NCBI GenBank assembly: GCA_019913005.1
Contig: JAIOHL010000355.1
Coordinates: 1-64,000, forward strand
Length of the DNA stretch: 64,000 nt
Direction: 5' to 3'
Source of the DNA: Anaerolineae bacterium
GTDB lineage: Bacteria > Chloroflexota > Anaerolineae > Aggregatilineales > J027
Numbering within the stretch: the first letter of the stretch is position 1; the number at the start of each line of letters is the position of its first letter. Positions 4,818-56,210 of the stretch are shown piece after piece. The position numbers were made by a program, and so were the translations under genes. The notes below the pieces were generated by a model, which saw only the letters and a program-made list of their open reading frames with translations, did not search any database and was not told the origin of the DNA.

Positions 4818-7022
4818 TTGAGCAAAAAAGCCGAACGTTATGTCCTCGCGTTTATCATCATCGGTTATCTCATTCTGGCAGGGAGTTATGCTCAAGGCCC
4901 ACTGTTTGAGCCACATGATGAGGATTTGCACTATGATTACATCCTTGTTTTGGCAAAAGAGCATGTGTTCCCGAACCCATATCCTGAAGAATGGACAGAA
5001 TATCTGCAACCCCCCGGCTATTATTTGCTGAATGCCCCCATTCTCGCTCTCCTGCCCGATCATGATTTTAAAGACCGCTACGAAGAGATGCGAAAAAATC
5101 CCTTTGCGGGCGAATTGATTGACATCCCCCACCAGCAAAATCGCAACCAGTATCTGCATGACCGCAGTGAATCCTTTCCTTACAAAGGCAACGATACAGC
5201 ACGGAATACCCAAGTGCTGCGCTGGTTTTCGATATTGTTAGGCCTGCTCACTTTATATTTCAGCTACCAGATTTATCAGATGCTGTGGCCCAGCCGCGCC
5301 TATCGAAGGCTGCTAGCACTTGGCATCGTTGCGTTCTGGCCGCTTTTCGTTCGTATGTTCGGGGCAATCAATAATGATAATTTGGTCTATCTGCTGGCAA
5401 CCCTCAGTCTCTATTTGGTGCTGCGCCAAATGAAGGACGGACCGTCGCTAAAACAAAACATCATCTTAGGGATCGTGCTGGGGACTAGTTTGATGACTAA
5501 ATCCTATACCGGGTTTCTCGCAATCCCAGTAGGGCTTTGGGTCGCCACTGATCGGCGCACTTGGCGGTATGTGCCGCTGATTCTTGCACTAACTCTTGGG
5601 ATCGGTGGCTGGTGGTATGTACGGAACGTCATGGTGTATGGAAATGCCACTTTTTACGATCACCCTCAGTTACAGGCTTGGTGGGTAAAACCCGGTGGCA
5701 GATTTTCATTAAGTTATGCGCTCGACACCTTTCCGTTGATCTTTCACCATTTCTGGGCACATTACCGCTTAATCGTCGTCCACCGACCTTTATACATGGG
5801 GTTCTATACCGTCAGCGTCATCAGCATAGTCGGTATGATCTTCCAAGCGTTCCGGTTCTCGCGCGTTATCTATCGTGAGAAGTGGTCGGTAGAACGTCGG
5901 TATGCCTTCAAACAAGCGCTGGTGGTCGTCGGATTTGTGGTGGGATCGTTTCTGATGATCTTTTATATTTGCGGCACAATCTACAGTGGTTATCAGGGCC
6001 GCTACGCGCTTGGAGCCATCGCAGGTATGGGGGCGTGTATGGCACTGGGCCTAGAGGGGTGGCTGCCAGAAAAAGTAAAACGACCTTTTGTATTGACCAG
6101 TATCACCTTTATGGCCGCGCTCTCGATGGTCATATTTGCAGGCTACTACCGATTTGTGTTCACCGTCTTTCCCCCGCCAAACAAAATTGAACATCCAATC
6201 GTGTATCGTTATGACAATACGGTGGAACTGATCGGTGTCAAAGAGATTTCAGTGGGTGGGCAGCCGGGCGACCTCGTTGAGATCGTGGGCTATTGGCGGG
6301 CGTTGGGTACTGTTACCAACCCCAACTATGTAGTATCAGTCACGGCGTTTGGCAGTACCGAGCTTCGTAAACACAGCTATCCGGGCGGTGGCAACATGAT
6401 AGCGACGGATTGGCGAGCAGGGGATGAATGGACTGAGCGCTACTTTATGAAGATTCCGCGTGATGCTGAAACACAGAAGGTTTATCCATTGAGCATCGGC
6501 CTCTTTGATGTGGTGACGGGTTATATCCCACCGATCACAGATGCCAATGGGCAAGAGGCGTTTCCGGTGGTCGGGCGATTCATCGTGCATGGGACGCCTG
6601 TCGCCAATCCCGCTTATGATTACACGCTTGGCAATATCATTGGCTTGACATCCACGAGTTTGCGGCGCAATGGTGATGATATTTCTCTATGTGTGGATTG
6701 GGTATCACTCAAGGCGACCTCCATTGATTTTCATTATTTTGTGCATGTTTATCAAGGTGAGGAGTATTTTACGCAAATTGACGGGCAGCCACGCAGCGGC
6801 GATTACCCAACAGGCGCATGGCTTCCCGGTGAGGTTATCAAAGACTGTATGACCATCAATGCCGCTGGACTCCCCAACGACGGTTGGTCGGTCAAGATAG
6901 GCCTGTATGACCCAACGAATTTACAGCGTCTCCCTATACATGATGAAGCGGGCAATGTCCTAGCAAACGATTGGCTTAGTTTGGTGATTGGGGAAAATGG
7001 AGCAGTTATTCCGCAGCCGTAG
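4818..7022 (+). CDS. GT-C-fold membrane glycosyltransferase-like protein
   Basis: 734 residues. A first membrane helix (about residues 8-26) is followed by HDED at residues 33-36; an acidic pair after helix 1 is the catalytic feature of GT-C enzymes such as GT39/ArnT and DUF2142 proteins. Roughly nine further hydrophobic segments reach about residue 455. The C-terminal third is a soluble, probably extracytoplasmic beta-rich region with two related modules, each opening with a VELIGV or NIIGLTS segment. The TTG at 4818 is preferred because GGAG stands about 6 bp upstream; the longer frame from 4743 overlaps the methyltransferase. It would transfer a sugar from a polyprenyl-phosphate donor on the outer face of the membrane, matching the GT2 gene that could make that donor. 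Acceptor unknown. Confidence 0.8.
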   Translation: MSKKAERYVLAFIIIGYLILAGSYAQGPLFEPHDEDLHYDYILVLAKEHVFPNPYPEEWTEYLQPPGYYLLNAPILALLPDHDFKDRYEEMRKNPFAGELIDIPHQQNRNQYLHDRSESFPYKGNDTARNTQVLRWFSILLGLLTLYFSYQIYQMLWPSRAYRRLLALGIVAFWPLFVRMFGAINNDNLVYLLATLSLYLVLRQMKDGPSLKQNIILGIVLGTSLMTKSYTGFLAIPVGLWVATDRRTWRYVPLILALTLGIGGWWYVRNVMVYGNATFYDHPQLQAWWVKPGGRFSLSYALDTFPLIFHHFWAHYRLIVVHRPLYMGFYTVSVISIVGMIFQAFRFSRVIYREKWSVERRYAFKQALVVVGFVVGSFLMIFYICGTIYSGYQGRYALGAIAGMGACMALGLEGWLPEKVKRPFVLTSITFMAALSMVIFAGYYRFVFTVFPPPNKIEHPIVYRYDNTVELIGVKEISVGGQPGDLVEIVGYWRALGTVTNPNYVVSVTAFGSTELRKHSYPGGGNMIATDWRAGDEWTERYFMKIPRDAETQKVYPLSIGLFDVVTGYIPPITDANGQEAFPVVGRFIVHGTPVANPAYDYTLGNIIGLTSTSLRRNGDDISLCVDWVSLKATSIDFHYFVHVYQGEEYFTQIDGQPRSGDYPTGAWLPGEVIKDCMTINAAGLPNDGWSVKIGLYDPTNLQRLPIHDEAGNVLANDWLSLVIGENGAVIPQP

Positions 7023-44257: not shown

Positions 44258-44314
44258 CTGGTTACAGCCCTGTAACCAGCCTGTAACCGCCGTGTAACGC
44301 CCGTTCGTTATCTT
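44258..44314 (+). promoter_or_regulatory. TGTAAC half-site array and -10 upstream of the exporter operon
   Basis: GTTACA (44261-44266) is followed by TGTAAC at 44271-44276, 44282-44287 and 44293-44298, the last three exactly 11 bp apart. The first two form a perfect 10-bp inverted repeat with a 2-bp centre (44258-44267, 44270-44279). TATCTT at 44309-44314 lies 10 bp after the last site. Tandem half-sites at 11 bp ending 10 bp before a -10 are the layout of PhoB-type response regulator sites. The operon's own OmpR-type regulator is a candidate. Confidence 0.55.
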
Positions 44315-44358
44315 TCTCTCTCAGATTTGGAAACGTTTTTTGAGAGGAGAAAGACTGC

Positions 44359-47061
44359 GTGAAATCGCCCCACTTTAGATTAACCAGTAGTGTACTGCTG
44401 GTGGTCATGTTGTTGGTAAGTGTACTGCCAACGGCCCATGCCCAAAACAATACACCTATCTCTTTGGCCCTGCCGAGTTTTTGGCAGAACATCATGGGAG
44501 AGGAGTTTTTAGCTGATTTTGAGACCCAATATGGTGTGGATGTCTATGTCAACTACGTAGATACAGGGTTTTCTTCGGCCAACGACATCACGACCTTTTT
44601 GGACGACGGTCAAGACTACGTTAGTCAAGCCGATGTGCTGTATGTGGATGATTCTACATTAACACCAGAACGCACCCGCGCCGGATTCTTCCTTGACCTT
44701 ACACCCTTGATCGCCAGTGATGCGTCATTGGATACCAACGATTTTTACCCCGCCGCTCTGCAATCCTTCCAATGGGATGCTGGAACTTGGGGACTGCCCA
44801 CGTCGCTAGATGTCATTCTCGTCACTTATGACGCCGCCGCCTTTGACGAAGCAGGCTTGGCCTATCCGACCTCCGCATGGACTCTCGATGATTTTGCCAA
44901 TGCGGCCCGTGTCTTAGCCCAAATAGATGCCAGCGGCGCGGTGACTGTCCCCGGCCTTTCTGTGCAAACCTTTGGTGACAATCTAGGTCTGTTTCTGCGT
45001 ACCCTACTCGCACATGGTCTATATGACGACAGCACCCTGCCCAGCAATCCCTCCTTTTCCGACCCGGCCCTCGAAACCTTGTTAACCACATGGAAGGAAC
45101 TCGCCGACGAAGGGGTGATTGGCAGCAGTTTTGGTGAGACGTCCGATCAAATCCCGCTGCGTATCGAGCAAAGTTCCGGTCTGTCCGGTTTTGGGCCGGA
45201 TTCAGTCGAACGCAGTGGCGCAATGCTGCCGGGTGGCACGGTTGGCTTGACCGTTGAAGGCTTCGCCGTGAGCAGCGGCACGCAATACCCCGAACTCGCC
45301 TATGAATTGGTCAAATATCTGACCACCCGCCCTGAAATCGCCAATTCTTTCCAAAGCATTAACCCCGCCCGTCGCAGCATGGTCGGTGTACAGGCGGATA
45401 CTGGCAATGGACAGGGCGGGCCGGGTGGCGGTGGCGGCATCCAATTTGGACGAGGTGGTAATCTCTCCGAAGAAAATCAAGCCATCGTCAATGAGGCCAT
45501 TGAAAAAGCCCTGCCAGTTTCGGCAACCCGTTTCACCGATTACCTCAGCTTCGCCCTGCAAAAAATGCAGAGTGATGGACTGGATGCCCACAGCGCCCTG
45601 CAAGAAGTTGAATTGGAAGCGCTTGCCGCAATGCAAACCGCCGATGAACGCCGCAGCTCCGTCGCCATTTCGATTATTCCACCGCCTGAAGCTGTTGCCC
45701 TTGCTCCCGGCGAAGTCGCCCTTGATTTTGGTATGGCGTCCTCGTTCATCATGATTGGCCCCGGCGGTGGGTTGCCCAATCAAGAACAATGGGATCAAGT
45801 TTCGCAAGATTTCGCGGCCAACGACCCCGACGTGGGGGTGGTGAATGTCGAACAGGCGCAGGGGCAATCCTTGGCGGAATTAGCCGAGCAATATGACTGC
45901 TTCACCCTCGGTTACAACGCGGTTTCGGGTGATTCTGACCTCAGCAGCATTTTGAGCCTCGACCCCTTCCTCGATACCGACCTAAATTTTGACCGTAATG
46001 ACGTGATTGGCAACACCCTGACTCAGCTACAGGTAGACAACAAGACATGGGCCTTGCCGATTGGAATTCAAGCCGACGTGCTGCGGTACGATACCCAGTT
46101 ATTCAGTAATGCAGGGGTGCCGCTGCCCGATGGTGGTTGGACAGTAGATGAATTTGCCGATGCGCTGGAATCGCTGCAATACGGTTTGGGCGATACGGCT
46201 GCCTTCCAACCCGCCGACCCCGGTGGCACCTATCTACTGATGCTCATCGCGGCCTATGGTGGTTTACCCATAGATTACCGCACCGAACCACCGACCATCA
46301 ACTTCACCGACCCCGCGACGGTAGACGCCATTCGTCAGGTCTTGGATTTAGCCAAGAACGGCTATATCGAGTATCAGGAACTCGGCGGCACGGGCTTTGC
46401 TATCTCTATTGGTGGTAGCGATGATACAAACACCATTGCCATCACCACCGACAGCCTCAGTCCATTCAGCTTCCGGCGCGGTGGCCCTCCCGGTAGCGCA
46501 CAGGCCGAAGATACAACGGCGATTGTCAGCTATCCACGTGGCACAACCTATAACGCGGCCTCCTATAACATCGTGACGGGTTATGTCAGCGCCACTGCCG
46601 AAAATCCAGCGGCGTGTTATCGGTGGTTGAGCGAAATCGCGCAGCACCCCGAACTCTATTCGGCCATGCCTGCCCGTACTTCGCAACTCAGTGATCCAAC
46701 CATCACCGCATCTCAAGGGGAAGATTTGACGGCGCTGTACAACGAACTTGCCACTACGATTAGCGACCCCAATACCATCACCTTCCCGCAGTCGTTTCGT
46801 GAAAGTGGCTCCCCCGCCAATTTCGCCAGAGAGTATTGGCTAAAGCAGGCGTTTGACCGCTATGTCTTGGAAGACGCAGACTTGGGGACGGAATTGGCAC
46901 AGGCCCAGCAGTACACCCAAGACTACATTAGCTGTATCAGCGACCTGCCGCCGTTTGATCCTAGCAGCACCGACCAGAATTACATGCAGGATTACTTCGG
47001 GCAAATCACCATCTGTGCGGCAACTGCCGACCCGAATTATCCGCTACCCGGTCAGGAATAA
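44359..47061 (+). CDS. Secreted tandem solute-binding protein
   Basis: 900 residues. A signal peptide ends near AHA-Q (residue 28) with no lipobox. Two family 1 type solute-binding domains follow in tandem, about 30-440 and 455-900. The repeat is seen in TWGLPTSLDVILVTYD and TWALPIGIQADVLRYD, and in WTLDDFANAARVLA and WTVDEFADALESLQ. A Gly-rich linker PGGGGGIQFGRGG lies near 360. The GTG start has GAGAGGAGAAAG upstream. It leads an operon of export-type components, an unusual partner for a binding protein normally linked to importers. The two domains may bind different or the same ligand, perhaps to sense it. No ligand can be predicted. Confidence 0.88.
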   Translation: MKSPHFRLTSSVLLVVMLLVSVLPTAHAQNNTPISLALPSFWQNIMGEEFLADFETQYGVDVYVNYVDTGFSSANDITTFLDDGQDYVSQADVLYVDDSTLTPERTRAGFFLDLTPLIASDASLDTNDFYPAALQSFQWDAGTWGLPTSLDVILVTYDAAAFDEAGLAYPTSAWTLDDFANAARVLAQIDASGAVTVPGLSVQTFGDNLGLFLRTLLAHGLYDDSTLPSNPSFSDPALETLLTTWKELADEGVIGSSFGETSDQIPLRIEQSSGLSGFGPDSVERSGAMLPGGTVGLTVEGFAVSSGTQYPELAYELVKYLTTRPEIANSFQSINPARRSMVGVQADTGNGQGGPGGGGGIQFGRGGNLSEENQAIVNEAIEKALPVSATRFTDYLSFALQKMQSDGLDAHSALQEVELEALAAMQTADERRSSVAISIIPPPEAVALAPGEVALDFGMASSFIMIGPGGGLPNQEQWDQVSQDFAANDPDVGVVNVEQAQGQSLAELAEQYDCFTLGYNAVSGDSDLSSILSLDPFLDTDLNFDRNDVIGNTLTQLQVDNKTWALPIGIQADVLRYDTQLFSNAGVPLPDGGWTVDEFADALESLQYGLGDTAAFQPADPGGTYLLMLIAAYGGLPIDYRTEPPTINFTDPATVDAIRQVLDLAKNGYIEYQELGGTGFAISIGGSDDTNTIAITTDSLSPFSFRRGGPPGSAQAEDTTAIVSYPRGTTYNAASYNIVTGYVSATAENPAACYRWLSEIAQHPELYSAMPARTSQLSDPTITASQGEDLTALYNELATTISDPNTITFPQSFRESGSPANFAREYWLKQAFDRYVLEDADLGTELAQAQQYTQDYISCISDLPPFDPSSTDQNYMQDYFGQITICAATADPNYPLPGQE

Positions 47062-47145: not shown

Positions 47146-49905
47146 ATGTTCCGCCTGTTTGACATCTTGACGCTGGTTTTTGAACGTCTCTGGCAGCACC
47201 GGATTTTGGTGTTCTGGACGCTACTTGGCCTTTCAACCGCGACGACCCTTGCCCTGAGCCTGACACTCTATGTAGATGCGGTCTATAGCAATCTGCTCGA
47301 CGACCAATTAGGCGACCCACCCTATGCCTTCCGTTTTCGTTATCTGGGGGCATGGGAGGGCAACATCTCGCCGGAGGATGTCAGCAGCGCCAGCGCCAGC
47401 ATTCACCAAGAATTTGCCCAATCGTTCGGTCTGCCTGTCCTACGCGAAGCCCAATATATCGGCATCGGCTTTTGGGGGATTCGCGGGGCTGAAAACAACC
47501 TCAATATCGGCAACTACAGCATCGGGACACTCGAAGGGGCGGATGCACAAATTCAAATTGTCGCCGGGGAATGGCCTGCGAAATCTACCTCGGCGGATGA
47601 AATTCCCGTCCTCATTTCTGAAGAACTGTTTTACACAACAGGCTTGGAAGTCGGCGATACCTTAACCGCGACCCGTGCTGGCGGCAAAACCGTCACCCTC
47701 AAAATCGCAGCGATGTGGCGGGCGGTCAACACCAACGATACCTCGTGGATGCTGCCACCCAAATTTTTTAATGAAGTGCTGCTTGTCCAACCCACCCACC
47801 TAAACGCGATGGTCGAGGGCAACGACTCACCGATTGAAGAGGTGGACTGGTACGTCCTATTTGATGGCACAGGTCTCCGTACCTCGGATGTACAAGCCTT
47901 GCTCTCGAATATCATCAATGGTGAACGGAACGTCAATGCGACCTTGCCCGGTATCCGTCTCGATGTCTCACCCAAAAGTGGACTTGAATCGTTTAACAAT
48001 GAGGTCAATGAGCTTCGTCAGCAATTGGTGATTGTGGTATTGCCCGTTGGCGGCCTCATTCTCTATTTCGTGACCATGCTGTCAGGCATGTTGGTAGGTC
48101 GTCAGCAGCACGAAGATGTGATCTTGAGCAGTCGCGGGATGAGCCGCCGTGCCTTGTTACGTCTTCATGCGCTCATGTGGCTGATTCTGGCAGGGATAGC
48201 TCTCGGCATTGGCATCTTCGCCGCGCCCTCGGTGGTGGAATTGGTAGGCCGCACCACTTCATTTTTGCGCTTCAACAACCCCACCCCCGATTTAAGCATC
48301 CAATTTACCCAACAGGCGGTTTTGTTGGGAGCGGCAACGGGCCTTATCGCGGCGAGCAGCGGCCTCTTGATTGCATGGCGCACTACCCGCCAAAGCATCA
48401 CCAGTTTTAAACAGAGCCAAGCACGGGCAGGCAAGGCGTGGTGGCAGCGCATGTATCTGGATATCCTGCTGCTTATCCCGGCTGCCTATGTGTTTTATAA
48501 CCTGAACGCCGAAGGGGGATTGCAGGCCGACGCTGAAAATCCGTTTAGCAATCCACTGGTGTTCCTTGCCCCCACACTGTTTTCACTCGGCCTCACACTG
48601 TTGTTCCTGCGTCTCTACCCGATGCTGTTGAATTTTGGCGCTCGTATGATTGGTATCACCAGCAGCATTGCTTTGTTGATGGCTCTGCGCGAACTGACCC
48701 GTTCGATTAGCAGGTATCGTGGGGCACTCTTGATGATGTGCTTCACTCTGAGTCTGACCGGATTCACCGCGTCTATGGCAAGCACGCTTGATCGCAGTTT
48801 AGAGGACACCATCAATTATGAAATTGGTGCGCCATCGGTGCTGGTGGTCGCTTCGGAGGCCCAAACCGAAACCACCACCAATGATAGCGGGGAAGCAGAA
48901 GAGGAATTGGTCGGCTATAACACCCTGCCTGCCAGCAATCTCTTGGCAGTGGAGGGTATTGACAATGTTTCACGGGTGGGCCGCTTCAGCACCCAGATTT
49001 TGCTGAACAACCAGCGCATTAGTGGTACTACACTGGGCATTGATCGGGGTGCATTGGCGGCAATCGCCTATTTCCGTGACGACTATGCCGGCGAAAGCCT
49101 GCCCGCCCTGCTAAATAAATTGGCCGGAAATCGCACGGGCATCCTATTAAACCGCGAAACTGCCGAGACCTATCATTTGCTGGTGGGCCAAGAAATCACC
49201 ATGCAGTATTCGGCATTGGGCGAGACCTATCAGACTACTGTGCCCATTGTTGGTCTGCTGGATTATTTCCCGACGCTTGACCCGGCGGACGGCTTTTTTG
49301 CCATCACCAATCTTGACCCGATTTTTGAACTGGTTGGGACGGAACTGCCCCATGACGTGTGGATCAGCCTCGCCCCAGATGCAGACCGGGATGAAGTTGA
49401 AGCAGGCGTTCAAAAAATCGGCTTCCCGGTGCTACGCTGGCTTGACCCTCAAGAATCCTTACTTGAAGCCCAACTTGCGCCGGGACGACGTGGGGTACTT
49501 GGTTTTCTATCGGTTGGCTTTGTATCGTCCATCGTGCTGACCCTCGTCGGCAGCATTATCCAAAGTACCGCCTCATTTCGCGCTCAGGCTCTGCAACTCG
49601 GTTCGCTTCGGGCAATGGGTTTGAGCGGAGGGGCGGTTGGGGAATATCTGATTTTTGCACAGGGCATCGCCTCCAGTGGCGGTGTCATCGGCGGGACACT
49701 CATCGGGACTGCCACCACTCTGCTGTTTTTGCCATTGTTGGATTTTAGCGGAGGTCTGCCTCCCTATCTGATCCGCGTGGCATGGGATGAAATCACTTTA
49801 GTCTATGGGGTATTTGCGGGAATCCTCATCATCGTAACTTTAATGACCACCATCCTCCTCAGCCGCGAGCATCTATCGGCTCTGGTGAAACTGGGGGATG
49901 CGTGA
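47146..49905 (+). CDS. Double FtsX-type ABC permease (MacB/LolC-like)
   Basis: 919 residues. An N-terminal helix (about 17-38) and a long outer region (about 40-280) precede the first FtsX core (about 285-420), which contains VVLPVGGLILYFVTMLSG. A second outer region (about 560-775) precedes the second core (about 785-910) with the typical FRAQALQLGSLRAMGLSGGAVG turn. The two cores make it equivalent to a fused permease dimer. TAGGAG precedes the ATG. It is followed by a MacA-type adaptor and two ATPases of the LolD/MacB type, so it is a mechanotransmission-type exporter or lipoprotein or peptide transporter. Substrate unknown. Confidence 0.88.
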   Translation: MFRLFDILTLVFERLWQHRILVFWTLLGLSTATTLALSLTLYVDAVYSNLLDDQLGDPPYAFRFRYLGAWEGNISPEDVSSASASIHQEFAQSFGLPVLREAQYIGIGFWGIRGAENNLNIGNYSIGTLEGADAQIQIVAGEWPAKSTSADEIPVLISEELFYTTGLEVGDTLTATRAGGKTVTLKIAAMWRAVNTNDTSWMLPPKFFNEVLLVQPTHLNAMVEGNDSPIEEVDWYVLFDGTGLRTSDVQALLSNIINGERNVNATLPGIRLDVSPKSGLESFNNEVNELRQQLVIVVLPVGGLILYFVTMLSGMLVGRQQHEDVILSSRGMSRRALLRLHALMWLILAGIALGIGIFAAPSVVELVGRTTSFLRFNNPTPDLSIQFTQQAVLLGAATGLIAASSGLLIAWRTTRQSITSFKQSQARAGKAWWQRMYLDILLLIPAAYVFYNLNAEGGLQADAENPFSNPLVFLAPTLFSLGLTLLFLRLYPMLLNFGARMIGITSSIALLMALRELTRSISRYRGALLMMCFTLSLTGFTASMASTLDRSLEDTINYEIGAPSVLVVASEAQTETTTNDSGEAEEELVGYNTLPASNLLAVEGIDNVSRVGRFSTQILLNNQRISGTTLGIDRGALAAIAYFRDDYAGESLPALLNKLAGNRTGILLNRETAETYHLLVGQEITMQYSALGETYQTTVPIVGLLDYFPTLDPADGFFAITNLDPIFELVGTELPHDVWISLAPDADRDEVEAGVQKIGFPVLRWLDPQESLLEAQLAPGRRGVLGFLSVGFVSSIVLTLVGSIIQSTASFRAQALQLGSLRAMGLSGGAVGEYLIFAQGIASSGGVIGGTLIGTATTLLFLPLLDFSGGLPPYLIRVAWDEITLVYGVFAGILIIVTLMTTILLSREHLSALVKLGDA

Positions 49906-49925
49906 TGCAGGAGAAATTCGACGAT

Positions 49926-51263
49926 ATGAAAAAACATGTTTTCGCTCTGATGGCTTTATTGATGCTGGTATCGGCCTGCACATCCGGGAATGATCCGAAT
50001 GCAAACGGCCCTTCTGCAACGATTACCTCCATTCCCACCGCCCCCGCTGCGGCACGTCCAAAATACACTGTGCAGCGGGGTAATGTGGAGGAAATCTTCG
50101 AGTTTAGTGGCCGCTGGCAGCCGCGTGACCAAATGGAATTGTCCTTCGAGATCAACGGCACAATCCGCCAAGTCAATGTGCGGCAGGGCGATGCGGTCAG
50201 TACGGGACAGTTGCTTGCTGATTACCAAATTGAAGACCTTGAAGAACAACTGGTAAGCGCCGAACTATCGCTGGAAACGGCCCAAACCAATTTAGAGACA
50301 GGCACAGGGACGGATGTCCAGTCGGTGGAAGATGCCGAAATCCGCTTGGCGAATGCTAAACTAAGTCTTGAGCAGACCAAAGCCAGTCGTGATTGGACAG
50401 GGGTCGCTAATGCGCGGATTTCACTCGATGCCGCCCAACGCGATCTGGAAGACGCCGAACAAGCCTATCAAGAAGCCCTTAGCCATCCTGAACAGGGAGC
50501 AAGCGCGGTAGATAACGCCTATACCCAACTGCTCAATGCCCAAGACAGTCTGCGCCGCGCTGAAAATTCCTATTTCTCAGCCGCCCAAAGCTACAACAAT
50601 GCCGAGTTCAACATCAAACAGCAGGAAAATTCGGTGATTGAGGCTGAACTAGCATTGGAACGGGCGCGGAGTGGGCAAGGCGACCCCAGCGGCCTCGAAA
50701 ATCTACGGCAGGCCCAATTGAAAGTGGATCAACTCAAAACCGATATTGCCCGTTCTTCACTGTATGCCCCGATGGACGGCGTGATTTTGGAAGTCAGCAT
50801 CAGCCCCGGCGACCAAGTAACGGCCTACAACGCGGTCATCACCATCGGCTTGCCGGAACCCAAAGAGGTCATCGCCAGTCTTGCGATTGGGGATGCTCAA
50901 AATTTGAGTGCCGGGATGGTCGGGGTGTGTCAGATCGCCAATAAACCGGAAACCGCTGTGCAATGTGCCGTGCGTCGTATCCCCGGCAGCAATCGGGATG
51001 CGGACCAAACCACCCGTATCGGGGCGGGTTTTGAAAATTTGACCGATGGGCAATTGATCCAAGTGTATATGCCACTGCAAATCCGCGAAAACGTTTTGTG
51101 GCTACCTCCCGCCGCGATACGCACCTTCCAAAATCGCACCTTTGTGGTATTGGATACCCCCGACGGACAGCGTTCGGTAGATGTCGAACTCGGTCTGCAA
51201 ACCGATGATCGGGTCGAAATTATCAGCGGTGTTAACGAGGGCGATGTCGTCGTCGGGCCATGA
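49926..51263 (+). CDS. Lipoprotein adaptor of the MacA/HlyD family
   Basis: 445 residues. A lipoprotein signal with Cys18 in LVSAC anchors it to the outer face of the membrane. A lipoyl-like barrel (AVSTGQLLADYQIEDLEEQL), a long coiled-coil hairpin (about 75-250, rich in Leu, Ala, Glu and Gln), and a beta-barrel region (SLYAPMDGVILEVSISPGDQV) follow. This is the membrane-fusion layout. ATG at 49926 is chosen because it starts the signal peptide; the frame can also open at 49902. The stop lies 14 bp before the next ATG. In a monoderm it would work with the FtsX-type permease without an outer-membrane channel. Confidence 0.9.
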   Translation: MKKHVFALMALLMLVSACTSGNDPNANGPSATITSIPTAPAAARPKYTVQRGNVEEIFEFSGRWQPRDQMELSFEINGTIRQVNVRQGDAVSTGQLLADYQIEDLEEQLVSAELSLETAQTNLETGTGTDVQSVEDAEIRLANAKLSLEQTKASRDWTGVANARISLDAAQRDLEDAEQAYQEALSHPEQGASAVDNAYTQLLNAQDSLRRAENSYFSAAQSYNNAEFNIKQQENSVIEAELALERARSGQGDPSGLENLRQAQLKVDQLKTDIARSSLYAPMDGVILEVSISPGDQVTAYNAVITIGLPEPKEVIASLAIGDAQNLSAGMVGVCQIANKPETAVQCAVRRIPGSNRDADQTTRIGAGFENLTDGQLIQVYMPLQIRENVLWLPPAAIRTFQNRTFVVLDTPDGQRSVDVELGLQTDDRVEIISGVNEGDVVVGP

Positions 51264-51276
51264 TCGAGGTGCAAGC

Positions 51277-52209
51277 ATGACGAGTTATATCTACTGCAAA
51301 AATCTGGTGCGGGCCTATCAAGTCGGCGGTCATGAGGTTTTAGCGCTCAAAGGGGTGGATTTTTCGATGGAACAGGGCGAGATGGTAGCGATTGTCGGGC
51401 CAAGTGGCGCGGGCAAAAGTTCACTATTGAACCTGTTGGGGGGATTGGATAAACCCACTGCCGGACAATTAACCGTTGATAGCCTAAATCTGCTCGAACT
51501 CAAAGGCAAGCGGCTGGCGGAATATCGGTTGAAAAGGGTCGGGTTTGTCTGGCAAAACGTCACCCGCAATCTGCTGCCGCATCGTTCCGCCTTCCATAAT
51601 GTGACCCTGCCGATGACCCTTGCCGGGATGTCGCCGTGGCAGCGCGGCAAACAGGCCCGCGAATTATTGGATGCGGTGGGGCTGAATGACCAAACTCATA
51701 AACGACCTGCCACTTTATCAGGTGGTCAGCAACAGCGTGTTGCCATCGCCGTCGCCCTTGCCAATCGGCCTTCGCTGTTATTGGCAGATGAACCCACCGG
51801 TGCGTTGGATCGTAAAAACGCGATTCAGGTGATGCAACTGATTAATGATTTGCGGGGGCGTTATGGTCTGACGGTGTTGATGGTGACACATGACCTCGAT
51901 ATTGCGGCCTATGCTGACCGCACTTTGACGTTACGTGATGGGGCCTTAGGCCAAGACGTCTCGCACGCCTCCGAAGAAACACCCTTCTTAGATACCGAAG
52001 GTCGGATTCAGCTACCCGACACTGCCAAATCACAACTATCTGAAGCGACCCGTATCGCAGTCGAGGTGCGCCCAGAGGGGATTTTACTGCGGCCTGAACA
52101 TGACACCCCCGACGACACCCATCTGCTGCTTAATGAGATGTTCCCACAAGATGTCCCACCCACGCGACGGCGCTTCCTTCGACGAGGCAAGAAACGGGGG
52201 GCGGCATGA
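51277..52209 (+). CDS. ABC ATPase 1 of the FtsX-type exporter (LolD/MacB-like)
   Basis: 310 residues. Walker A GPSGAGKSS lies near residue 45, LSGGQQQR is the signature, LLADEPTGALD the Walker B and VTHDLDIA the switch His. The core is the usual 220 residues; an 85-residue C-terminal extension ending in a basic tail (RRRFLRRGKKRG) is unusual. The ATG at 51277 is preferred because GAGGTG stands upstream; an earlier frame start at 51181 lies within the adaptor gene. It overlaps the second ATPase by 4 bp. The two ATPases may form a heterodimer on the double-core permease. Confidence 0.92.
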   Translation: MTSYIYCKNLVRAYQVGGHEVLALKGVDFSMEQGEMVAIVGPSGAGKSSLLNLLGGLDKPTAGQLTVDSLNLLELKGKRLAEYRLKRVGFVWQNVTRNLLPHRSAFHNVTLPMTLAGMSPWQRGKQARELLDAVGLNDQTHKRPATLSGGQQQRVAIAVALANRPSLLLADEPTGALDRKNAIQVMQLINDLRGRYGLTVLMVTHDLDIAAYADRTLTLRDGALGQDVSHASEETPFLDTEGRIQLPDTAKSQLSEATRIAVEVRPEGILLRPEHDTPDDTHLLLNEMFPQDVPPTRRRFLRRGKKRGAA

Positions 52210-52943
52210 GAAACAATAATCACAGAGCCTCTCCGACTACACTGTGTGTGACGGTCAACCGTGTCGAGCGTCGTTTTGGGGATGTTCAGGTGTTGCGTGG
52301 GGTAGATTTAAACGTTGAGCGTGGTGAATTGGCAGCCTTATATGGCCCATCCGGCAGCGGCAAAACCACCCTCTTGAATCTGATTGGGGCATTGGATCGT
52401 CCCACTGCTGGACAAATTGCGTTTTATGGGCAGGATATTTTGCGGATGAATGACCGTGCCCGTACCAAACTGCGCCGTAAATCCATCGGCTTTATTTTTC
52501 AGAGTTCGACGTTGCTGCCGACCTATACCGCTATTGAAAACATTGACCTTGCGCTGCGTCTGCTGAAATTAAACGTTTTTGAGCGTAGTCGCCGTGCCAA
52601 ATCTGCTTTGCAGGCCGTTGGTCTCAGCGCATGGGCCAATCATGTCCCCGATGAATTAAGCGGGGGTCAGCGCCAAAGGGTCGCCATTGCGCGTGCCCTT
52701 GCCATGCACCCCAAGCTGATCCTTGCCGACGAACCCACCAGCGGCCTAGATACGCGCCTTGCCCGCCGGATGCTGGCGCTGTTCCGCAGCATCGCCGAGA
52801 CACAGGGCACAACCTTTTTGATCGTCTCCCACGATCCAATGGTCATCGAATATGTAGACCATGCTTACGATCTTTTTGACGGGCAGTTGACGCCCCGCCT
52901 GATTGTCCGAGAAGAAACATCTCAAGAGGAAATCCCATGCTAA
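52206..52943 (+). CDS. ABC ATPase 2 of the FtsX-type exporter (LolD/MacB-like)
   Basis: 245 residues. Walker A GPSGSGKTT, Q-loop near FIFQSSTLL, signature LSGGQRQRVA, Walker B LILADEPTSGLD and VSHDPMVI are complete, so both ATPases look active. The start ATG overlaps the end of ATPase 1 (ATGA). Its stop overlaps the start of the LysM gene. A second ATPase in place of one homodimeric subunit suggests asymmetric control of transport. Confidence 0.92.
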   Translation: MRNNNHRASPTTLCVTVNRVERRFGDVQVLRGVDLNVERGELAALYGPSGSGKTTLLNLIGALDRPTAGQIAFYGQDILRMNDRARTKLRRKSIGFIFQSSTLLPTYTAIENIDLALRLLKLNVFERSRRAKSALQAVGLSAWANHVPDELSGGQRQRVAIARALAMHPKLILADEPTSGLDTRLARRMLALFRSIAETQGTTFLIVSHDPMVIEYVDHAYDLFDGQLTPRLIVREETSQEEIPC

Positions 52944-53812
52944 AGGTTATGATGAAACAGGGCATGTCGGCCCTAACGATGATTCTGGCGATGATCGCCG
53001 GGGGAGTTATCACCCGCCTCGCTATTCCGAGCGATAATGTCACGGATAGTGATTCTACCCCCTACGCCAATGTCCAGCAGCAAGAAACCACCCCGTCGCC
53101 TACCGCGTCGGAGACCATTCCGCCCTATACACCCCTGCCATCGCTGACGCCCTCGCAGACCCTTAAGCCACCGCCCACCTTTGAGCCAGCAACACTGACC
53201 CCACAGCCATCATTGACGCCGACCTTGACGCTGACCCCAACCATTCAACTGGACGTGTCTGTTCCCGGTCTCAATGGGGCAGAAACACCGACACCCTCTA
53301 CCACACCCGGCTGTGTCCCGCGTGAAGATTGGACATTGACGTATACCGTCAAGATGGATGATGCACTGGCCTTAATCGCCGAGCAATATAACACCTATGT
53401 GGATGAGTTGGTCAAAGCCAACTGCCTCAAAGATAAGAACCTCATTGTTATCGGGCAGGTGTTACGAGTGCCGGGGACAGCCCAACCTGTGCAAGCCTAT
53501 GATTGCAAAGCATGGGAAGTCCTAACCCCGTTTAATGGTACGGTGACGGTAGCAGGAGACGGCCAGATTACCTTTAATTGGCGTGGCCCGGATGCACCCA
53601 AATATCTGATTCGCATCTATCGGCCCGATGGCACAGTTTTTGAGCGATTGGTAGAACTACGCCAAAATGAACAGATTCAGGCCAGCGAAGACCTGCGGCC
53701 CGGTGGAACCTATACATGGTATGTTTATCCGCTGGACAATAACTTTGTGCAAATCCCCTGTCACGAAGGCGGTCCTTGGCAGTTCACCAAAGAAGCAGCG
53801 GGAGGGGCTTGA
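52937..53812 (+). CDS. Membrane-anchored LysM-domain protein
   Basis: 291 residues. An N-terminal membrane helix (about 8-27) leads into a Pro/Thr-rich linker (about 45-125). A LysM-like domain (about 131-178, LTYTVKMDDALALIAEQYN) follows, then a C-terminal beta-sandwich with NWRGPDAPKYLIRIYR and GGTYTWYVYPL that is fibronectin-III-like. Two Cys pairs may form disulfides. LysM binds peptidoglycan, so the protein could position the exporter at the wall. The start overlaps the preceding stop by 7 bp. TTGACA of the next promoter overlaps its stop codon. Confidence 0.82.
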   Translation: MLKVMMKQGMSALTMILAMIAGGVITRLAIPSDNVTDSDSTPYANVQQQETTPSPTASETIPPYTPLPSLTPSQTLKPPPTFEPATLTPQPSLTPTLTLTPTIQLDVSVPGLNGAETPTPSTTPGCVPREDWTLTYTVKMDDALALIAEQYNTYVDELVKANCLKDKNLIVIGQVLRVPGTAQPVQAYDCKAWEVLTPFNGTVTVAGDGQITFNWRGPDAPKYLIRIYRPDGTVFERLVELRQNEQIQASEDLRPGGTYTWYVYPLDNNFVQIPCHEGGPWQFTKEAAGGA

Positions 53813-53868: not shown

Positions 53869-55515
53869 ATGAGCACCTTGCAATCCATCCGATGGCGACT
53901 ACCCCTCAGTTATGCGGGCATCGCGTTGTTGGCGACCCTAGCATTAGGGACGGTTTTGCTGACCACACTCAATGGCTATTATACGCAGCGTGAACGCGAA
54001 TATCTCCATCGCATTTCTGGGCCGTTCCCGCGTAATATCGAGCAGCTTGCCTCGGATGGGGTTGCTTTGGACGATATGCAATATGTCATAGACAATCACA
54101 GCTTTATTGCGCGTTCACGGGTACGCCTCCTCGATCCAAATTCACAAGTCGTCTTAGATACCGGTACTTTCACAGGTGGCGACTTTATCACCATCAGCGT
54201 CGAAGGTGCGCCTCCTGATGCCATCCTGAGCACGGGCAGTATGGCGGTGGCAGGAGGGGGCGGAGATTCGGGGATGCCTCCAGATTTGCAAGTGACGCAA
54301 GGCTCAGTGGCCGCGCCAGCGATTATCTCGTTTCTCAGTCTAAATGGCAGAGTACCTTTTGAATATGCTGTATCCGATGCCGAAGACAATACAGTTTATG
54401 GTCCGCTAGAATTCAGGGGACAGTCCCGCATGTTTTCCGTACCTGTCGGCGGCAGTCCATTTGGATATGATTTAGACAACCCCGAGATTTCGAAAGATGG
54501 GCGGCACTCTGGTGAAGAAGTCATCCGAGCTTTGTATACCGATGATGGGACATTCATCGGTTATCTTGAAGTGTCGGAAGGGCCAGCCTTTGGACGCGAG
54601 ATTTTAGACAGCGTAGCAAAGGGCTTGATTAGCGCCGGAGCAGTAGCGATTATTCTGGCCGCGCTGGTTGGCTGGTTAGTGAGTCGGAATATCAGCCAAC
54701 CCCTGCTCGCCCTGACGGAAGCCACCAGCCACATGGCCGATGGTCGGCTTTCGGCCCGCGTAGATATGAAACGAGGTGACGAACTGGGTATCTTGGCCCG
54801 CTCGTTTAATGACATGGCGCATCGCGTCGAGAATACCGTTGTCACACTGCGCCGATTTGTAGCCGATGCCGCTCATGAACTGCATACCCCCCTGACCGCC
54901 CTACGCACCAATCTCGAATTAGCAGTTGTCGAAACCGACCCCCAGACCCGTGAAAACTTTATCCATCGTGCCGAAGCCCAAGCCAACCGCCTTGAACATC
55001 TGACCAACAGCCTGCTCGATTTGGCACGCATCGAATCCGGCTCGTATCAGCATCAGACCCAATCGGTGGATTTGACAGGATTGATCAAACAGATTAATGA
55101 GGTTTATGCGTCACGTGCTGAACAGGCCGGGTTATCGTTGAATCTCGATACCCCCTCTCAGGAAGTCACCATTGAAGCCAATGAGCCACAAATCACGCGG
55201 GTGATTGATAATCTGCTGGATAACGCGCTCAAATTTACCCCCGAAGAGGGCACGATTACATTGGGGCTGATTCCACAAGAAAGTGATGTTGAATTGTGGG
55301 TCAAAGATACGGGTATCGGCATTCCTCCCGAAGATTTGCCGAACCTATTTAACCGTTTTTATCGGGGGCATAACGTCGCGGCTTATCCGGGCAACGGGCT
55401 TGGCCTTGTCATTATCAAAGCTATTGTAGAAGAACACCGGGGGACAGTGACAGTTCACAGCGACCATTCCGGCACACGCTTTTCGGTCAAGCTGCCAAAG
55501 GGGGCAGTATCATGA
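53869..55515 (+). CDS. Sensor histidine kinase
   Basis: 548 residues. Membrane helices near 15-35 and 250-270 bracket an extracytoplasmic sensor region of about 215 residues with Gly-rich loops. A HAMP domain (about 270-320) leads to the phosphoacceptor His336 in AAHELHTPLTALR. The ATPase domain has NLLDNALKFTP, DTGIGIPPEDLPNLF and GNGLGLVII. The H-box reads HELHTPL rather than HELRTPL. It overlaps the response regulator by 4 bp. It probably senses the same envelope condition or substrate that the upstream exporter handles. Confidence 0.94.
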   Translation: MSTLQSIRWRLPLSYAGIALLATLALGTVLLTTLNGYYTQREREYLHRISGPFPRNIEQLASDGVALDDMQYVIDNHSFIARSRVRLLDPNSQVVLDTGTFTGGDFITISVEGAPPDAILSTGSMAVAGGGGDSGMPPDLQVTQGSVAAPAIISFLSLNGRVPFEYAVSDAEDNTVYGPLEFRGQSRMFSVPVGGSPFGYDLDNPEISKDGRHSGEEVIRALYTDDGTFIGYLEVSEGPAFGREILDSVAKGLISAGAVAIILAALVGWLVSRNISQPLLALTEATSHMADGRLSARVDMKRGDELGILARSFNDMAHRVENTVVTLRRFVADAAHELHTPLTALRTNLELAVVETDPQTRENFIHRAEAQANRLEHLTNSLLDLARIESGSYQHQTQSVDLTGLIKQINEVYASRAEQAGLSLNLDTPSQEVTIEANEPQITRVIDNLLDNALKFTPEEGTITLGLIPQESDVELWVKDTGIGIPPEDLPNLFNRFYRGHNVAAYPGNGLGLVIIKAIVEEHRGTVTVHSDHSGTRFSVKLPKGAVS

Positions 55516-56210
55516 GACCTACCAATCATATTCTGGTGATTGAAGACGACCCCGGCATAGCCTATAGTTTGCAAGATGGCCTCAAACGTGAAGGCTACAC
55601 AGTGACATGGAAGGCCAACGGGCATGACGGAATGGATTTTGCCCGCGACATCAAGCCGCATTTGATTATTTTGGATGTCCGCCTGCCTGACGGCTCCGGC
55701 TTCGATTTTTGCCGCCAAATGCGCTATATGGGGTTGCGCCAGCCGATTATTATGCTGACCGTCAACCGCGAGGAGATGGACAAAGTGCTGGGGCTGGAAA
55801 TGGGTGCGGATGATTATGTCACGAAACCCTACAGCCTGCGTGAATTAGCCTCAAGGGTGAGGGCACAATTACGGCGGGCCTATGGCGAACTTGCCAGCAC
55901 TGACAGCAATACCCTCTATGTCGGCGACCTTTTGATTGATCGGGCACGAGGGCAGGTGACGCGCGGTGAAGAGGTGGTCAATTTGACCCCCACCGAGTTT
56001 CGGCTTCTGACATTTATGGCCCAACACCCCAATCAAATCCTCAATCGCAACCAGATTTTGGACGCGGTGTGGGGTTATGAAAGTGACCCCGACAGTGAAC
56101 AGATCGTGAAGGTCAACATTCGGCGGCTGCGTGAAAAAATTGAAATTGACCCCAGCCGTCCCACATTGCTGCTGACGGTGCCGGGGATTGGTTATAAGCT
56201 GGTGTGTTGA
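55512..56210 (+). CDS. OmpR/PhoB-type response regulator
   Basis: 232 residues. Receiver domain with acidic pocket EDD at 11-13, phospho-Asp55 in IILDVRLPDG, and Lys in VTKPYS. The C-terminal winged helix contains LTPTEFRLLTFMAQHPNQI and VKVNIRRLREKIE. The start overlaps the kinase stop (ATGA). OmpR-family regulators bind direct half-sites about 10-11 bp apart, matching the TGTAAC array at 44271-44298 upstream of this operon, so it is the likely regulator there. Confidence 0.95.
   Translation: MRPTNHILVIEDDPGIAYSLQDGLKREGYTVTWKANGHDGMDFARDIKPHLIILDVRLPDGSGFDFCRQMRYMGLRQPIIMLTVNREEMDKVLGLEMGADDYVTKPYSLRELASRVRAQLRRAYGELASTDSNTLYVGDLLIDRARGQVTRGEEVVNLTPTEFRLLTFMAQHPNQILNRNQILDAVWGYESDPDSEQIVKVNIRRLREKIEIDPSRPTLLLTVPGIGYKLVC

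Follow-up and report, generated by a model that had tools for sequence, protein, structure and literature searches.

In the genome of an Anaerolineae bacterium (phylum Chloroflexota, GenBank assembly GCA_019913005.1), an array of short half-sites precedes an export operon that also encodes a sensor kinase and an OmpR/PhoB-class response regulator, and this array, as judged from sequence and conservation, is very probably the operator of that regulator and would give the operon positive autoregulation. The array lies within the 64,000-nucleotide stretch of DNA that was analyzed (positions 1 to 64,000 of contig JAIOHL010000355.1, forward strand; hereafter the window). We consider it the operon's own switch because dozens of related genomes have this layout together with this regulator family, and the regulator clade, the arrays found before separated units, the association with loci for an extracellular solute-binding protein (SBP, the first gene of the operon) and the single copy in the home genome together indicate the operon's own regulator.

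The array and its promoter

The layout spans 54 bases upstream of the export operon and consists of four half-site copies followed by a -10 element; it lies within window positions 44258-44314, which read CTGGTTACAGCCCTGTAACCAGCCTGTAACCGCCGTGTAACGCCCGTTCGTTATCTT. The inverted copy, GTTACA (44261..44266, i.e., TGTAAC on the minus strand), is the distal arm of a 6-4-6 dyad whose second arm is direct half-site 1 (TGTAAC, 44271..44276, plus strand); direct half-sites 2 (44282..44287) and 3 (44293..44298), both TGTAAC on the plus strand, follow at steps of 11 base pairs (bp), and the -10 element TATCTT (44309..44314, plus strand) comes 10 bp past the last copy. A first-pass annotation of this DNA had listed one inverted and three direct copies of TGTAAC at 44261, 44271, 44282 and 44293, exactly as the sequence reads, but had placed all four on an 11-bp register; that register holds only for the three direct copies, since the step from the start of the inverted copy to that of direct half-site 1 is 10 bp. 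Half-sites 2 and 3 flank the place expected for a -35 element (44286-44291), and a sigma-70 promoter with a consensus -35 was sought at the array and not found.

The orientation of the first copy was assessed by leave-one-out comparison against direct half-sites taken from the remaining loci: its mean score was +7.6 bits as an inverted site and -4.5 bits as a direct one, and the inverted fit was better in every one of the 23 arrays. The outer base of this copy tends to track the direct sites (G with a final C, A with a final T), and the core GTAA of direct half-site 1 is invariant across the 23 arrays. On the same scores, a reading of the first copy as a direct repeat (GTnAC-type, in the style of a GlnR box) was rejected. 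The first copy is truly inverted, and the array is therefore not a pure PhoB-style direct-repeat box.

For the -10 element, arrays were chosen without use of the -10 columns and gaps of 0 to 23 bp were compared. At the 10-bp gap, 54 of 65 array readings had an A in position 2 and a T in position 6, as against 10 or fewer of 65 at any other gap; the readings beyond these 54 mostly come from the same arrays, read in reverse or out of step. Both bases are invariant in the aligned arrays (23/23). The -10 element, proposed in the first-pass annotation at this very distance, is real.

Beyond a chance repeat

Single TGTAAC words are common, a point in favor of a chance repeat. However, an exact search for TGTAAC-N5-TGTAAC, as recommended in the first-pass annotation, returned only two matches, both in the array, and no others in the window or the 7.6-Mb genome. 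Scans of the home genome for the layout were profile searches: the full-layout profile, built from 23 rows of which the window's own array is one, found the array at E = 2.3e-10, the next match having E = 0.35. When 49 SBP loci were scanned with position weights, near-identical training rows excluded, the arrays scored 20-50 bits, the maximum in shuffled sequence (758 kb) being 7.0 bits. Across 121 genomes, the triple direct pattern had 27 matches, about half of them before the exporter operon, compared to 2 for a reversed control. Given these figures and the conservation of the array throughout the phylum, a chance repeat is scarcely credible; the array is real and far beyond chance. The two-half-site pattern, on the other hand, was uninformative for a genome-wide regulon, as its reversed control gave more matches.

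Conservation and link to one regulator clade

Five of five genus members keep the four half-sites and the -10 element. In one of them (G001) a rearrangement has replaced the upstream gene and left the array intact, which argues that the array belongs to the downstream operon. Many genera of Anaerolineae carry RTTACR-N4-YGTAAY-N5-YGTAAS-N5-TGTAAY-N10-xAxxxT before the orthologous operon, including distant ones where the first protein is only ~37-50% identical. The array is thus present where the first-pass annotation had asked for it, its absence before orthologous operons having been named there as grounds for giving up the proposal.

At seven loci (L096, L105, L110, L117, L119, L124, and L135) the kinase and regulator genes are separated from the SBP unit, and an array stands before each unit; L135 has three units and three arrays. 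The L124 contig is labelled Bacteroidetes but encodes a regulator that hardly differs from the one of L105, an Anaerolineaceae genome; the contig is probably mis-binned. The array was found at 21 of the 22 SBP loci that have an ortholog of the regulator and at 9 of the 27 that lack one (Fisher p = 6e-6, a guide only, the loci being related by descent), and in most of these nine the contig ends before the regulator. A profile scan covering ~400 genomes from the class and the phylum placed the full layout, outside the order, mainly beside regulator orthologs 63-69% identical to that of the window, often preceding a fusion-protein gene without SBP. Of 53 regulators placed in a tree, 30 form one clade (support 100/99), in which 27 have an array, one a weak array and two none. 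The home-genome scan showed no second full layout beside any regulator paralog; the layout occurs there once.

Identity of the regulator

The product of the last gene has the receiver (PF00072, 4.8e-25) and winged-helix Trans_reg_C (PF00486, 5e-25) domains that define the OmpR/PhoB class, as the first-pass annotation had it. Its closest solved relative is MtrA (2gwr), and its best NCBIfam match is likewise MtrA (NF040689, 219.2 bits, cut-off 300), followed by WalR/YycF (NF040534, 210.6 bits, cut-off 340), PhoB (TIGR02154, 193.2 bits, cut-off 296.2) and the AgrR/CopR heavy-metal family (TIGR01387, 179.7 bits, cut-off 279.2). Since every score lies below its cut-off, the regulator belongs to none of these families; on sequence it is nearest to MtrA and WalR. 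OmpR-class paralogs number in the dozens in the home genome, and the one most like the operon's regulator is 43% identical to it.

Proposed mechanism and alternatives

We propose that the regulator, probably phosphorylated by the neighboring kinase, occupies the GTTACA-N4-TGTAAC pair and the two further direct half-sites in helical phase. Bound in this way it would cover the missing -35, 10 bp from the -10 element, and recruit RNA polymerase as a class II activator. With transcription predicted to start near 44321, from the position of the -10, the half-sites would begin at about -60, -50, -39, and -28, a placement that has the geometry of a class II activator. If the regulator activates the operon promoter, then sensor, regulator and exporter would be driven together, the operon thus raising its own sensor and regulator along with the exporter (positive autoregulation). 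Physical binding, a need for phosphate, cooperativity and activation over repression are what we infer here. It is almost as likely as not that this phylum-wide clade, by sequence neither PhoB nor CopR, has an operator in which one symmetric and one tandem pair of half-sites are joined, so that a regulator tetramer would have to combine mirror-symmetric and head-to-tail arrangements of its DNA-binding domains to activate.

The same regulator might instead bind and repress the promoter (negative autoregulation). Two half-sites fall in the -39 to -23 region, open to a repressor, so that position alone is indecisive, and the fixed spacing could also suit a repressor at the same place. Nevertheless, we deem repression unlikely: the -10 element is fixed 10 bp downstream, the promoter is expected to be weak unaided because no -35 was found, and AgrR boxes of like design activate (PMC7380067). 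It is rather improbable, too, that a different OmpR-class regulator, e.g., an MtrA/WalR-like paralog, binds the array in place of the operon's own. WalR recognizes the same TGTAAC-N5-TGTAAC word (PMC4168254), MtrA has it too, the paralogs in the genome are many, and other Chloroflexota carry direct-only triples, with a 10-bp gap to a -10, in front of unrelated genes; against this, the layout with the inverted copy tracks one regulator clade phylum-wide, even when the downstream gene changes, and in the home genome it is found in full at this operon only. The palindrome at 44258-44279 was offered in the first-pass annotation as a possible weak terminator of the transporter operon before it, which is a nucleoside-type one, and in the home genome it does have perfect 10-bp arms and a 2-bp loop. 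However, as that annotation itself remarked, no T-run follows it on the plus strand (the sole T-run is on the minus strand), and in G001 and G002 outer stem pairs are lost, the half-sites staying even with a different upstream gene. With the array kept in G001 where the upstream gene was replaced, the terminator reading fails; the comparison of congeners leaves it next to no probability.

Several observations weigh against an operator dedicated to the operon's own regulator. Arrays without a regulator ortholog are seen at L106 and L111, in the DNA examined, and at L185 (G314), where the array precedes a lipoprotein gene and no ortholog lies within 17 kb; conversely, at L112 and L219 the regulator is present with no array nearby. 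As the loci share descent, the Fisher test overstates their independence. Moreover, at several class-level loci the array stands between the regulator gene (upstream) and the exporter (downstream), i.e., 3' of the regulator gene, which it would not control there; autoregulation thus does not hold at every locus. Taken with the clade, the separated units and the single home copy, we still hold positive autoregulation by the operon's regulator to be very probable. Such an operator would supply the cis-regulatory code of a two-component system and an exporter not described before, from a phylum most of whose members are uncultured, and would make the system's regulon predictable from sequence alone.

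Gene content of the operon

The operon lies on the plus strand. A ribosome-binding site, AGGAG (44345..44349), precedes the GTG start at 44359 of the SBP gene (44359..47061, 900 amino acids), in which two SBP-like stretches (PF01547) are fused in one chain, though the rest of the operon is exporter-like. The start region, ribosome-binding site included, is flanked by an 8-bp inverted repeat (TCTTTCTC/GAGAAAGA) and by CTCTCA/TGAGAG (44311-44354), largely kept among congeners. Next come a 919-amino-acid FtsX/MacB-like permease (47146..49905; PF12704 below its cut-off), kept in synteny, and a HlyD/RND-type membrane fusion protein (49902..51263; TIGR01730 above cut-off). Two ATP-binding cassette (ABC) transporter ATPases follow, the first at 51181..52209, with an uncertain start (51181 gives the longest frame, homology begins at ~51274), the second LolD/DevA-like (52206..52943). 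A secreted protein with a candidate LysM-like stretch, a reading from its sequence, is syntenic (52937..53812), and the operon ends with the sensor histidine kinase (53869..55515; HAMP, HisKA, and HATPase) and the response regulator that is the proposed array binder (55512..56210). This gene order is kept in congeners and in several families of the order.

Related arrays elsewhere

In three congeners (L072, i.e., G001:C8, ~6586-6641, minus strand; G003:C46; G002:C8), the four-site layout with a -10 element (TATCCT/TATACT) at 10 bp also occurs at a gene for a PMT_2 glycosyltransferase that neighbors a 5S ribosomal RNA gene. That copy is decayed in the home genome (C85) and in G004, where the gene seemingly starts inside the decayed copy. 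Four direct TGTAAT/TGGAAC copies at 11-bp steps, with TATCCT 10 bp on and no inverted copy, precede a small secreted protein at G000:C152:21780-21840 (L187, 5771-5837), and recur in G003. A dyad before a methyltransferase gene (G000:C288) was dropped, having no direct copies downstream.

In several genomes of the order, at six loci (L104 9236, L107 9180, L109 7009, L114 2331, L133 123, and L098 34), a second array lies ~650-700 bp upstream of the first and precedes a small secreted protein of ~160 amino acids (CDGRLNAFDI motif) just ahead of the operon. In other Chloroflexota, L164, L167, L168, and L179 carry, at about position 1501, a triple direct TGTAAC with a 10-bp gap and a good -10 before unrelated genes. 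These sites are perhaps MtrA/WalR-like regulons, and from such direct-only triples it is probable that the word is shared by further regulators of this class.

Comparison with known systems

The pho box of PhoB in Escherichia coli likewise has direct half-sites at an 11-bp step, promoter-proximal and without a -35, with the half-site word CTGTCAT. The first-pass annotation had classed the array as a PhoB-type site, which is right as to direct 11-bp half-sites before a -10; however, a pho box consists of direct half-sites only, whereas here the conserved first copy is inverted, and the word, TGTAAY, is that of WalR and MtrA and not of PhoB. MtrA of Actinobacteria uses GTAAC-type direct repeats, and it is to MtrA that the regulator is closest in both solved structure and NCBIfam match. 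The published MtrA box, as cited in PMC7380067, is two direct repeats (8-3-8). A literature search for an MtrA motif together with direct repeats found nothing, and one for any similar operator already described in Chloroflexi found nothing relevant.

The WalR (YycF/VicR) box comprises TGTWAH-N5-TGTWAH direct repeats (PMC4168254). Half-sites 1-3 match it exactly, with the 5-bp spacer in both, and the recognition region RRLREKIE of the regulator is common to WalR structures. WalR sites differ in having two direct half-sites and no inverted copy, and the context of the array is an exporter.

The nearest likeness in overall design is the AgrR box of Cupriavidus metallidurans, a CopR/PcoR-type box, in which a 6-4-6 inverted repeat (ATTACA-N4-TGTAAT) is combined with direct repeats in phase, each of the two being required in vivo, and which is centred at -43.5 for class II activation with positive autoregulation (PMC7380067). 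The array contains the AgrR/CopR-type 6-4-6 inverted repeat as GTTACA-GCCC-TGTAAC; compared to the consensus ATKACANNNNTGTMAT, both outer bases deviate (G..C for A..T), and several relatives are exact. In both systems there is a good -10 and no good -35 (PMC7380067), and an OmpR-family regulator controls exporters. They differ in that the operator here regularly includes two extra direct half-sites in steps of exactly 11 bp, that the center of the dyad lies near -52, about one helical turn farther upstream, and that the regulator falls far under the heavy-metal cut-off. By analogy, the operator would work like an AgrR/CopR box though its regulator is outside that family, a natural case of inverted and direct half-sites combined for one OmpR-class regulator.
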